Below, one piece after another: positions 52,185 through 56,954 of a DNA stretch of 64,000 bases (its first letter is position 1; each line of letters begins with the position of its first letter). This DNA comes from Hydrogenovibrio kuenenii DSM 12350. Its GTDB lineage: Bacteria > Pseudomonadota > Gammaproteobacteria > Thiomicrospirales > Thiomicrospiraceae. The notes under the pieces are model-generated. The model saw nothing but the letters and a program-made list of their open reading frames with translations. It ran no database searches and had not been told where the DNA came from. The stretch spans positions 744,001-808,000 of the forward strand of contig NZ_JAGP01000001.1 in assembly GCF_000526715.1 (NCBI RefSeq), in the 5' to 3' direction. The position numbers were made by a program, and so were the translations under genes.

Positions 52185-52598
52185 ATGCAAATTGATAGAA
52201 ATATGAATATATTGGTTGTGGACGATTTTTCTACCATGAGAAGAATTGTAAAGAACTTATTGAAAGAATTAGGTTTTAGTAAGTTTGATGAAGCAGATGA
52301 TGGCGCGACTGCCTGGCCGATGATTCAAAGTGGTAAATACGATTTTATTGTTAGTGACTGGAATATGCCTCAGATGACAGGAATCGATCTTTTGAGACAT
52401 GTTAGAGCAGATGCGGCACTAAAAGATACGCCATTTTTGTTGATTACTGCAGAAGCAAAAAGAAGTCAGATATTGGAAGCTGCTGAAGCAGGTGTTGATG
52501 GTTATATTGTTAAACCATTTACCGCGGCAACATTAAATGCCAAAATTCAAAAGATTTTTGAAAGAGTTGAAGAACGTAAAAAAGCCAATGCCGGTTAA
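52185..52598 (+). CDS. cheY: Chemotaxis response regulator CheY
   Basis: The 137-residue single receiver domain has an acid pocket at D13/D14, phospho-acceptor D58 in FIVSDWNMPQMTG, the switch threonine in LLITAEAK and lysine in GYIVKPFTAATL. These match E. coli CheY closely. Phospho-CheY binds FliM to change flagellar rotation. A terminator separates it from cheZ, so cheY is the most strongly transcribed Che gene of this stretch if read-through is partial. Confidence 0.96.
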   Translation: MQIDRNMNILVVDDFSTMRRIVKNLLKELGFSKFDEADDGATAWPMIQSGKYDFIVSDWNMPQMTGIDLLRHVRADAALKDTPFLLITAEAKRSQILEAAEAGVDGYIVKPFTAATLNAKIQKIFERVEERKKANAG

Positions 52599-52680: not shown

Positions 52681-53334
52681 ATGGAGAGCATAAGTGTTGA
52701 ACAAGTAGAGTCTTTGTTAAAGTCGATAAAAGACAAAAATTATCAAGAAGCTGCTTCAATTATTGATGAATTGGTAAAAGTTAAAAATGAGAGCTTGGTA
52801 AAAGAAGTTCAAGAGTTATCAACCAGTTTACACAAATCACTGGAAAGCTTTGGAAATGATGCTGTTATATTGAAACATACCAAACATGATCTTCCTGATG
52901 CCTCTGAGAGGCTTAAATATGTTATCGATGCTACAGAAGAGGCTAGCAACAAAACTCTGGCAGCGGCTGAATCGGTATTGGAAAAAATCGAAGCCATAGA
53001 GTCTAAAACAACAGATAAGTCAATTTTGGATACGCTTTCCGCTGTTCAGTCGCAAATGACGGATATTATGGTTGCACAATCATTCCAAGACTTAACAGGT
53101 CAAGTTCTGAATCGTATTGTTGATTTGGTGACCAGTCTAGAAAAAAGTTTAAATGAATTAATTGTGAAAGCTGGTGTTGATTTGGATCTAATCACAAATC
53201 TGGAAGTTTCAGGCGATAAGAAACATTCAGATGAAATGAAAGGAATTGGTCCAAATGTGACTAAGGCAAGTAAAAAGGATGCTGTTTCTTCACAGGATGA
53301 TGTGGATGATTTGCTTGGAGATCTAGGGATATAA
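52681..53334 (+). CDS. cheZ: CheY phosphatase CheZ
   Basis: The 217-residue helical protein has the catalytic region DIMVAQSFQDLTGQVLNRIVDLV (the conserved acidic/Gln helix) and a C-terminal CheY-binding peptide QDDVDDLLGDLGI, just as in E. coli CheZ. It dephosphorylates CheY-P. It is preceded by a terminator and followed by a sigma-54-type promoter for cheA. Confidence 0.95.
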   Translation: MESISVEQVESLLKSIKDKNYQEAASIIDELVKVKNESLVKEVQELSTSLHKSLESFGNDAVILKHTKHDLPDASERLKYVIDATEEASNKTLAAAESVLEKIEAIESKTTDKSILDTLSAVQSQMTDIMVAQSFQDLTGQVLNRIVDLVTSLEKSLNELIVKAGVDLDLITNLEVSGDKKHSDEMKGIGPNVTKASKKDAVSSQDDVDDLLGDLGI

Positions 53335-53427: not shown

Positions 53428-55410
53428 GTGGATGAAGAAATTTTACAGGATTTTTTAGTTGAAGCGTCTGAGCTGGTAGAACAGCTCGATGAACAATTAA
53501 CAGATCTAGCCAATTCACCGACGGATTCTGATTTATTAAACGCAATTTTCAGAGGTTTCCACACAATTAAAGGCGGCGCAGGGTTTCTGGGCGTAACTGC
53601 CTTGATTGAAGTGTGTCATAGAGCTGAAAATGTTTTTGATAAAATTAGAAATGATGAGATAGCTTATGACCATGTTGCAAGTGATATCATCATGCGTGCC
53701 TTTGATGTTATTACAGACTATATAGAGCAGTTAAAGGATGGTGCAAGAGAGCTTGAAGATGCAGATCAAGGATTACTTGATGAGTTAGATGGTTTGTGGC
53801 GCGGACAGGCTGTCTCTTCAGGTGACGCATCGCAAGAGGAAGATGTTGCCACTCATGAGGCTGAAGTTGCCTCTGCACAACCAGAGGTTAAGCTTCAATT
53901 AGATGAAGGGCTTGATCCTGATGGTGAAATTAGTGATGATGAATTTGAAGCGTTACTGAATCAACGAGACGCACTCTCCGAAGGTGGGGCTGGCGGTACT
54001 GAGTCTGCGCCAGTTAAACTTGAGCTGGATGAAGGACTTGACCCTGATGGTGATATTACTGACGATGAGTTTGAAGCTTTATTGAACCAAAGGGATATGT
54101 TGAGTTCAGAGCCAGTTCAATCTTCACAACCACCTGAACCACCAAAAGTAGAAACACCTCCTCCTGCGCCAAAACCTACCGCAAAACCTGCTTCTAAGAC
54201 AGCAGAAGAAGGTAAATCTGATGATAAGCAACATTCTAAGGCTGCTGCAGAGTCAACAGTAAGGGTCGATACACGTCGTTTAGATGAGATTATGAATTTA
54301 GTCGGTGAGTTGGTATTGGTTCGTAACCGCTTGCTGACTTTGAAGTCGCTTGAGGACTCTCAGGAAGAGCTATCCAATGCTGTTGGAAACCTTGATCATG
54401 TCACTACGGATCTACAAAATTCAGTTATGAAAACACGGATGCAACCCGTGAAAAAAGTCTTTGGACGTTTTCCTCGTGTCGTAAGAGATTTAGCGAGAAA
54501 ACTGGGCAAAGAGATTGAGCTAGAGTTGCAGGGTGAAGAAACAGATTTAGATAAAAACTTGGTTGAAGCATTGGCTGATCCTTTAGTTCATTTAGTAAGA
54601 AACTCTGTTGATCATGGTGTTGAAATGCCTGATGTTCGTGAGCAAGCGAATAAACCGAGAAAAGGCACAGTAATTTTAGCTGCGGAACAGGAAGGTGATC
54701 ATATTCTTCTCTCTATTACCGATGATGGTAAAGGGATGGATCCAGATGTCTTGAGAAGAAAAGCTGTTGAAAAGGGCATGATGGATGAGGTTAGTGCCAA
54801 TCAGCTAGATGATAAGTCAGCGTTTGAATTGATTATGTCTGCTGGTTTTTCGACAGCAGAAGTAATTAGTGATATTTCCGGACGTGGTGTTGGTATGGAT
54901 GTGGTTAAAAACATGATTACCAAACTGAACGGCAGTATTGATATCCACTCTGTTCTTGGCAAGGGAACTCAGATTAATATTCGAGTGCCTTTAACCTTGG
55001 CTATTTTACCAACGTTAATGGTTGCCTTTGAAGAAGATAGTTATGCGATTCCTTTGACTAGCGTACAAGAAATTTTCGATTTTGACTCAAGTCAAACTAA
55101 CAAGATAGATGGACAAATGATGGTTCGTTTGCGTGAGAAGAGTATTCCTCTATTCTTCTTATCAGAGTGGTTGGCACCAGACAGTCAAAAAGAAGGTTTT
55201 GATGGAGACAAGGTTATTATTGTTTCTATTGGCAATCAAAGGGCAGGTTTTGTTGTTGATCAGGTTAATGGTCAAGAAGAAGTGGTTATCAAACCTTTGG
55301 GGGTTATGATGAAGCATATTGAAGGATATGCTGGCGCTACCATTACAGGTAATGGGAATATTGCTCTAATTCTGGATTTACCAGGTGTAATTCAACGTTT
55401 TCAATGTTAA
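53428..55410 (+). CDS. cheA: Chemotaxis histidine kinase CheA with a duplicated linker motif
   Basis: The 660-residue protein has a P1 domain with phospho-acceptor H45 in GFHTIKGGAG, dimerisation domain (RRLDEIMNLVGELVLVRNRL), an ATP-binding domain (LVRNSVDHGVE, DDGKGMD, GRGVGMDVVK) and a C-terminal CheW-like domain. Between P1 and the dimerisation domain lie two near-identical units of about 35 residues (starting at about 153 and 195). Each contains LDEGLDPDG-x-I-x-DDEFEALLNQRD. A Pro/Lys-rich linker follows. No clear P2 (CheY-docking) domain is seen. The start GTG 53428 gives the expected N-terminus. Confidence 0.96.
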   Translation: MDEEILQDFLVEASELVEQLDEQLTDLANSPTDSDLLNAIFRGFHTIKGGAGFLGVTALIEVCHRAENVFDKIRNDEIAYDHVASDIIMRAFDVITDYIEQLKDGARELEDADQGLLDELDGLWRGQAVSSGDASQEEDVATHEAEVASAQPEVKLQLDEGLDPDGEISDDEFEALLNQRDALSEGGAGGTESAPVKLELDEGLDPDGDITDDEFEALLNQRDMLSSEPVQSSQPPEPPKVETPPPAPKPTAKPASKTAEEGKSDDKQHSKAAAESTVRVDTRRLDEIMNLVGELVLVRNRLLTLKSLEDSQEELSNAVGNLDHVTTDLQNSVMKTRMQPVKKVFGRFPRVVRDLARKLGKEIELELQGEETDLDKNLVEALADPLVHLVRNSVDHGVEMPDVREQANKPRKGTVILAAEQEGDHILLSITDDGKGMDPDVLRRKAVEKGMMDEVSANQLDDKSAFELIMSAGFSTAEVISDISGRGVGMDVVKNMITKLNGSIDIHSVLGKGTQINIRVPLTLAILPTLMVAFEEDSYAIPLTSVQEIFDFDSSQTNKIDGQMMVRLREKSIPLFFLSEWLAPDSQKEGFDGDKVIIVSIGNQRAGFVVDQVNGQEEVVIKPLGVMMKHIEGYAGATITGNGNIALILDLPGVIQRFQC

Positions 55411-55416
55411 GGAAGG

Positions 55417-55923
55417 ATGCACATGGCTTTAGTTGCAGCAGGTCAAAATAAAGACGTCGATTTAGCTCTTATGAATGAAGAGGATCAGGAAAAGTATTCT
55501 GGTCCCAGTATTCGATGCGTTTTATTTGAATTAGACTCGGAAGTTTACGGTATCAATGTTAAGAAAATTCGTGAAGTATTGCGAGTAGGTTCTATCCGAA
55601 AAGTTGAAGGGTCAGGCTATAACGTGCTTGGCATTATTAATGTCCGCGGTGTTATTGTAACAGTTGTAGATACTCGACTTTCTTACGGGATTTCGCCTAA
55701 GCCTATCGATGATCTATCAAGAATCATTATTGTTGAAATGGATGAAGAAAATATTGTGGGAATGTTAGTAGATTGCGTTCTAGAAGTTAAAGATATTCCT
55801 GAAAAACAATTTGAACCTATGTCATCAACGAAAGAAGGTGCTTCACGTTATCTTCAAGGAATAGCGCATTTTAATGGAAATGTGATTATTCTTGTTGATG
55901 TTGACAGTATGTTTAAGGCTTAA
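55417..55923 (+). CDS. cheW: Chemotaxis coupling protein CheW
   Basis: The 168-residue CheW domain protein has RCVLFELDSEVYGINVKKIREVLRV, YNVLGIINVRGVIVTVVDTRL and VDCVLEVKDIPE. It is adjacent to cheA (6 nt), so it is the best candidate for the main coupling protein. Its 3' end overlaps by 11 bp the end of a convergent minus-strand gene. Confidence 0.94.
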   Translation: MHMALVAAGQNKDVDLALMNEEDQEKYSGPSIRCVLFELDSEVYGINVKKIREVLRVGSIRKVEGSGYNVLGIINVRGVIVTVVDTRLSYGISPKPIDDLSRIIIVEMDEENIVGMLVDCVLEVKDIPEKQFEPMSSTKEGASRYLQGIAHFNGNVIILVDVDSMFKA

Positions 55924-56194
55924 GGTCAAACTGTTTCCCAGAAAGTTGATAGGCAAAAATCAACACTTGAACGACAGCTTCATAGAGGGATTCAGGAATT
56001 TCGCTATCGAGTTCTACTTGTGATAGCAAAGAGACTAAGTTGTGATCTGAAGTAATTGGAATGTCATGTTCCTTGGCAATTTTAATAATCTCATCAGCAA
56101 TATATCCGTAGCCTTTCGCAGAAACTTTAGGTGCACTTGAGCCATCATATTCTAGCGATATCGCAACGGATTTATCTAATGTAATCTTTTCCAA
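55913..56194 (-). CDS. FlhB C-terminal domain homologue (FhlB/YlqH type)
   Basis: The 93-residue protein matches the cytoplasmic domain of FlhB alone: AISLEYDGSSAPKVSAKGYGYIADEIIKIAKEHDIPI and LLSQVELDSEIPESLYEAVVQVLIFAYQL. It has no membrane part and lacks the NPTH cleavage motif (the place reads as EYDGSSAPKV). Such stand-alone homologues, often beside a fliK-like gene, are proposed to affect substrate-specificity switching. It is last in the minus-strand group fliK-like, cheW-like, cheY-like, STAS. Confidence 0.88.
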   Translation of the reverse strand: MEKITLDKSVAISLEYDGSSAPKVSAKGYGYIADEIIKIAKEHDIPITSDHNLVSLLSQVELDSEIPESLYEAVVQVLIFAYQLSGKQFDLKP

Positions 56195-56594: not shown

Positions 56595-56954
56595 TTACAG
56601 TACGCGAGAAATGACAGATAGCAATTTTTCAGGGCTGAAAGGTTTAACAATCCACCCTGTTGCACCGGCTTCTTTACCCTTTTGCTTCATATCACCTGAT
56701 GACTCTGTTGTTAAACATAAAACAGGTGTGAATTTGTAATTTGGCATGCCTCTTAACGCCTGAATTAACTCAATACCATTCATATTTGGCATATTGATGT
56801 CAGTAACGACTAAATCAAACTGTTCACGTTTTGCAATATCAAGTGCAATGGCGCCGTCTTCAGCTTCAGTAACGTCGTGGCCAGCAGATTTTAAAGACAT
56901 ACTTACCATTTGACGCATTGATTTAGAATCATCTACTGCGAGAATTTTAGACAT
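56595..56954 (-). CDS. Second CheY-like single-domain response regulator
   Basis: The 119-residue receiver has D8/D9, phospho-acceptor D52 in LVVTDINMPNMNG, the Thr in LCLTTESS and Lys in GWIVKPFSPEKLL. It resembles the chemotaxis-type regulators next to STAS and CheW genes rather than the FliM-binding CheY at 52185. It may act as a phosphate sink or in a separate output. A TATAAT lies upstream in the gap after the cheW-like gene, so it may have a promoter of its own. Confidence 0.93.
   Translation of the reverse strand: MSKILAVDDSKSMRQMVSMSLKSAGHDVTEAEDGAIALDIAKREQFDLVVTDINMPNMNGIELIQALRGMPNYKFTPVLCLTTESSGDMKQKGKEAGATGWIVKPFSPEKLLSVISRVL

Follow-up and report, generated by a model that had tools for sequence, protein, structure and literature searches.

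Within the window (the whole 64,000-nucleotide stretch of Hydrogenovibrio kuenenii DSM 12350 DNA analysed here), the genes flhF, fleN, fliA, cheY, cheZ, cheA and cheW follow one another, so that the locus displays the flhF-fleN-fliA-cheY-cheZ-cheA order by which F6-class chemotaxis systems are recognized (Table 1). As in F6-type loci, cheZ adjoins cheA, and its product ends as the initial annotation had described. The window CheA, for which the closest named relatives are found in Hydrogenovibrio and Thiomicrorhabdus, matches the Pfam domains Hpt (residues 4-104), H-kinase_dim (275-336), HATPase_c (384-523) and CheW (530-657). Downstream, a stand-alone ORF of 93 residues (window positions 55913-56194, minus strand) matches the C-terminal part of FlhB only.

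Table 1. Chemotaxis genes of the window and features of the CheA linker (positions are those of the window)
Feature	Position	Strand	Remarks
cheY (F6 type), proposed client of the motifs	52185..52598	+	FliM-binding face kept, plus R92, Q94 and V103
cheZ	52681..53334	+	tail SSQDDVDDLLGDLGI, a known kind of CheY-binding C-terminus
cheA, P1-linker-P3-P4-P5 without P2 domain	53428..55410	+	660 aa, GTG start; Pfam and AlphaFold
Disordered linker in place of P2	53800..54258 (residues about 125-277)	+	pLDDT <50 outside the two helices
Motif unit, copy 1: VKLQLDEGLDPDGEISDDEFEALLNQRD	53887..53970	+	direct repeat; PWM score 22.8; helix at residues 170-184 (model)
Core of copy 1, ISDDEFEALL	53929..53958 (residues 168-177)	+	
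Motif unit, copy 2: VKLELDEGLDPDGDITDDEFEALLNQRD	54013..54096	+	direct repeat; PWM score 24.4; helix at residues 212-226 (model)
Core of copy 2, ITDDEFEALL	54055..54084 (residues 210-219)	+	
Second CheY	56595..56954	-	without FliM-binding face: W at 106, no K119

The linker of this CheA carries two copies of a motif with the common core pattern I[ST]DDEFEALLNQRD. The initial annotation had put the repeated unit at about 35 residues; the repeat itself is real, but the conserved unit spans 28 residues (25/28 identical between the copies at the protein level) and recurs with a period of 42. At the DNA level the copies lie in register, 126 nt apart, and are 81% identical over 83 nt. Both PWM scores far exceed the maximum of 1.0 attained in 1,740 shuffles of 87 CheA linkers, and the same matrix finds zero matches in the P3-P5 cores of 164 CheAs; a chance origin of the motif is excluded. 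A motif HMM run over the whole genome returns only the two window sites (E 1e-6 and 2e-6; next match, 0.45). Three residues of the copy 2 core, E214, F215 and L219, are invariant among 57 CheAs.

Twelve of the 17 nucleotide differences between the two copies fall on third codon positions, and with dN at 0.046 while dS is saturated, the protein sequence of the motif is evidently under purifying selection. The suggestion of an ancient duplication maintained by selection thus survives only in part: purifying selection stands, as does the general multi-copy state, but across the clade a copy shares more of its DNA positions with the other copies of its own protein (78%) than with the copy at the corresponding position of a different protein (69%) or with copies at different positions (70%). 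As close relatives in the clade also vary between two and three copies, units turn over or are homogenised; copies within one CheA co-evolve, rather than merely descending as two lineages that separated long ago. The unit of the Hydrogenovibrio clade has in addition gained an upstream LxLxEGVDPDG segment (window positions 53887-54096; loci L145-L157, L005 and L006), which is EF-hand-like without the first ligand and is absent from other F6 CheAs.

A survey of copy number in other CheAs, which the initial annotation had suggested, places the motif throughout F6-type linkers. For this, 276 genomes of the class were searched with the whole CheA, CheAs were taken from the fetched loci, and linkers were scored with a motif matrix of 15 columns, the cut-off being set higher than the 99th percentile obtained with shuffled linkers. 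All 87 F6-type (cheY-cheZ-cheA) linkers contain at least one copy and 82 contain at least two (one copy in 5 linkers, two in 38, three in 42 and four in 2), with a median spacing of 42 residues. The motif occurs in none of the 20 P2-type CheA paralogues of the surveyed genomes, nor in E. coli CheA. Among 77 named loci (including those of Vibrio, Aliivibrio, Photobacterium, Marinobacter, Methylophaga, Alteromonas and Serpens), every linker has two to four copies, a set slightly biased because one search word lay within the motif; survey counts are therefore taken from the 276-genome search. In a wider set of 174 CheAs drawn irrespective of the motif, 89 have the motif without P2, 68 have P2 without the motif, none has both and at most 17 have neither (Fisher p 1.4e-32). 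In at least four of the 17, a P2 like that of E. coli can be seen although the profile missed it, such that the true exclusion would, if anything, be stronger than these counts. Across the CheAs surveyed, motif and P2 are mutually exclusive.

No Pfam P2/CheY-binding domain is detected in 57 CheAs, including that of the window. An absent Pfam match proves nothing by itself, as the P2 in the second CheA of this genome escapes Pfam too; the P2-like domain of such gammaproteobacterial paralogues is invisible to Pfam and is identified by profile-profile comparison, in which it matches the E. coli type with a probability of 95%. Given this blindness of Pfam to some P2 domains, profile-profile comparison and a structure model were used. 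Whereas the two P2 profiles detect each other at 95%, F6 linkers align to them by hhalign with probabilities of 0.6% and 4%, and searches with NCBIfam and PDB profiles likewise found no P2 in F6 linkers. In an AlphaFold model built on 57 aligned CheAs, residues 125-281 mostly have pLDDT <50, except for two helices that coincide with the two motifs (Table 1), for which block pLDDT values are 77 and 88 (first helix) and 79 and 88 (second helix) in the unbound protein. The best Foldseek matches of this model are CheA P3-P5 structures. A clear P2 fold elsewhere in the linker, the observation named at the outset as one that would speak against docking by the motifs, was thus sought by both profiles and AlphaFold, and neither yielded one. 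Mean residue conservation is 0.31 in the linker outside the motifs versus 0.62 and 0.84 in the two cores, and the modelled linker has the look of helical linear motifs set within a disordered tether. Like the P2 of other CheAs (Pfam PF07194, PF09078), this linker lies between P1 and P3 and is proposed to do the same job; P2, however, is folded and some 65-90 residues long, as opposed to two 15-residue helices in a disordered segment.

The N-terminal peptide of FliM and the C-terminal tail of CheZ are a known pair of CheY-binding peptides, and by sequence pattern the CheA motif falls among linear motifs of this type. With BLOSUM-smoothed profiles of 11 columns scored over 5,284 ORFs, the CheA profile scores highest on the N-terminal peptide in each of 31/31 FliMs, at a median of 14.2 that lies near the 99.9th percentile of 4,839 other ORFs (14.55), a few unrelated ORFs scoring as high as FliM or higher. 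In the reverse search with the FliM profile, the CheA motif is the best window in 159 CheAs (median 13.0). FliM and CheZ score 14.6 and 15.7 against one another on this scale, and the CheA motif is accordingly about as close to the FliM peptide as the latter is to the CheZ tail. The resemblance to FliM proposed in the initial annotation is therefore real and measurable; that to the CheZ tail is present but weaker (about 8). A strict motif PWM missed FliM, and a HMMER profile retrieved neither FliM nor CheZ. Part of the likeness to FliM reflects a helix capping box, a general helix-start signal (I/L, S/T cap, E at N3) that also occurs in SHOCT and EF-hand sequences, and it thus supports a shared target without proving one.

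The FliM of this genome begins MEDILSQDEVDALLRGMGGG. Its peptide and the CheA motif both fit hydrophobic-[ST]-x-[DE]-E-hydrophobic-[DE]-x-L-L and lie in a disordered segment, the CheA copies being helical in the model of the unbound protein, but the FliM peptide is single and located at the extreme N-terminus, whereas the CheA motif is internal and repeated, carries F rather than I or V at its central position and has an acidic or LHG ending. The CheZ peptide (Table 1) has in common with the CheA motif its acidic character and a D-x-L-L core, and acts in trans on the CheY that is the proposed client of the motif; it differs in being C-terminal and single, in ending LGF or LGI and in its weaker sequence similarity. 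High scores with both the FliM and CheA-motif profiles are also displayed by L[ST][DE][DE]EWD[DE] at CheW C-termini of Vibrio and Alteromonadales (loci L191, L182, L222 and L217). A FliM-like segment in Aliivibrio ParP was dropped from consideration, being unconserved in other ParPs.

On the side of the presumed partner, 151 CheYs encoded alongside F6-type CheAs retain the FliM-binding face (A88, E89, K91, I95, Y106, F111, L116, K119 and K122), together with R92 (126/151), Q94 (150/151) and V103 (149/151). Recruitment of an F6 CheY to a P2-bearing F7 CheA was accompanied by the P2-facing changes R92K, Q94N and V103A (Ortega 2020, PMC7184735). From the residues involved, these changes would fit a switch of docking partner from motif to P2. 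The initial annotation had considered docking of both CheYs encoded in the window, which finds no support, as the FliM-binding face is present in the CheY at 52185 alone; the one at 56595 is without it and is not expected to bind the motifs. Its likely partner is the genome's second CheA, of P2 type, which has a P2-like linker and adjoins cheD. Adjoining the second CheA is also a gene for a 188-residue protein (locus L294, 5483-6049, minus strand) with a CheZ-like segment, AFQFYDKLSQRLDHV, and no Pfam match.

The likeness to FliM, the lack of P2 in the linker and the mutual exclusion of motif and P2 make docking of CheY in the place of P2 the best reading of these data, to which we would give a probability of roughly 0.7: tandem helical motifs in the linker of F6-type CheA would dock CheY, replacing P2. 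The two short linear motifs would engage the flagellar CheY (52185) via its α4-β5-α5 face, i.e., the face used by FliM, CheZ and the P2 of other CheAs. By raising the local concentration of CheY near phosphorylated P1, they would do the work of the missing domain; CheY would bind the helices weakly, stay within reach of phospho-P1 and then move on to the nearly identical peptides of FliM or CheZ. We infer all three elements of this scheme, namely the binding of CheY, the face used and the faster phosphotransfer.

FliM and CheZ peptides favour phosphorylated CheY (CheY~P), whereas P2 favours the unphosphorylated form. Given this preference, docking of the substrate by the CheA motif is not guaranteed, and whether the motif prefers CheY or CheY~P would decide between docking and a sink. 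As a sink or exchange site for CheY~P, the motifs would keep the product close to CheA and to the CheZ pool at the pole, thereby shaping signal decay instead of docking substrate. Resemblance to a CheY~P-preferring type of peptide, the several copies per CheA chain and the adjacency of cheZ and cheA in these loci would all suit such a role, which we nevertheless consider unlikely because a sink could coexist with P2, leaving the strict exclusion less well explained. That the motifs instead dock another partner (CheB, CheZ or a different response regulator) is improbable: E. coli P2 also binds CheB, and an additional client is conceivable, but what the motif resembles is a peptide specific for CheY, and the CheY encoded nearby carries the face to match.

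Two further readings were considered. DPDGEISDDEF resembles half of an EF-hand, and weak SHOCT scores appear in 56/57 CheAs, such that the repeat might be structural and devoid of any docking role, as a calcium loop or an oligomerisation helix. We regard this as very improbable. Loop position 1 is G in 39/45 clade units and A, S or G elsewhere, and the loop is missing from other F6 CheAs; the EF-hand reading was rejected for want of an acidic residue at that position. SHOCT was likewise rejected, the window CheA reaching 21.6 bits against a Pfam cut-off of 27, with 12/28 positions matched. The motifs might otherwise belong to LID, the region through which CheA binds ParP and arrays are anchored at the pole; LID is an element of the CheA linker before P3 and is said to occur only with ParC/ParP. 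The motifs have the same location, and Vibrio loci with parC and parP have three copies. They are, however, also present in Hydrogenovibrio, Thiomicrorhabdus and Methylophaga, and are kept in the window CheA with no parC/parP beside it and no ParP match in its own genome (E up to 1, in a search without its own positive control). As a general function of the motif, ParP binding was rejected on this last ground, and we hold it to be extremely improbable here.

F6-type systems run flagella in Pseudomonas, Shewanella and Vibrio. If CheY docking by the linker motifs is correct, CheY in such systems would be docked by repeats of a FliM-like peptide, a single CheY face would be contested by the kinase, the phosphatase and the motor through almost the same peptide, motif copy number could tune valency, and the CheY residue changes seen upon recruitment to an E. 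coli-type CheA would gain a concrete cause. A recent study (Berry et al. 2023, PMC10542144) describes more than half of CheAs as without P2 and with an unstructured linker, leaves CheY recruitment by these proteins unexplained and, in the text searched, mentions no linker motif. A search of the open literature (subscription journals lying outside its scope) found no earlier description of the motif.

More tentatively, with odds that we would place below even, several P2-less CheA lineages may have independently replaced a folded docking domain by tandem motifs of three types, i.e., DEFEALL (F6), [GA][FY]G[FL]F[DE] (E. coli-like core) and LDELExAF (some alphaproteobacterial), in which case P2-less CheAs would usually find CheY by multivalent motif docking. 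In the F6-to-F7 switch toward E. coli, docking by motifs would then have given way to docking by a domain. Two to four copies of [GA][FY]G[FL]F[DE], often followed by xAPGxP, occur in CheAs with an E. coli-like core (loci L225, L226, L227, L230, L234, L244 and L248), most of them apparently without P2. This pattern has only two unrelated matches in 1.02 million residues of other ORFs and is a possible second motif-type replacement of P2. Some P2-less, alphaproteobacterial-looking CheAs (loci L277, L282, L286 and L288) share EV[TSP]LD[ED]LExAFxxxPGP, which is loosely FliM-like.
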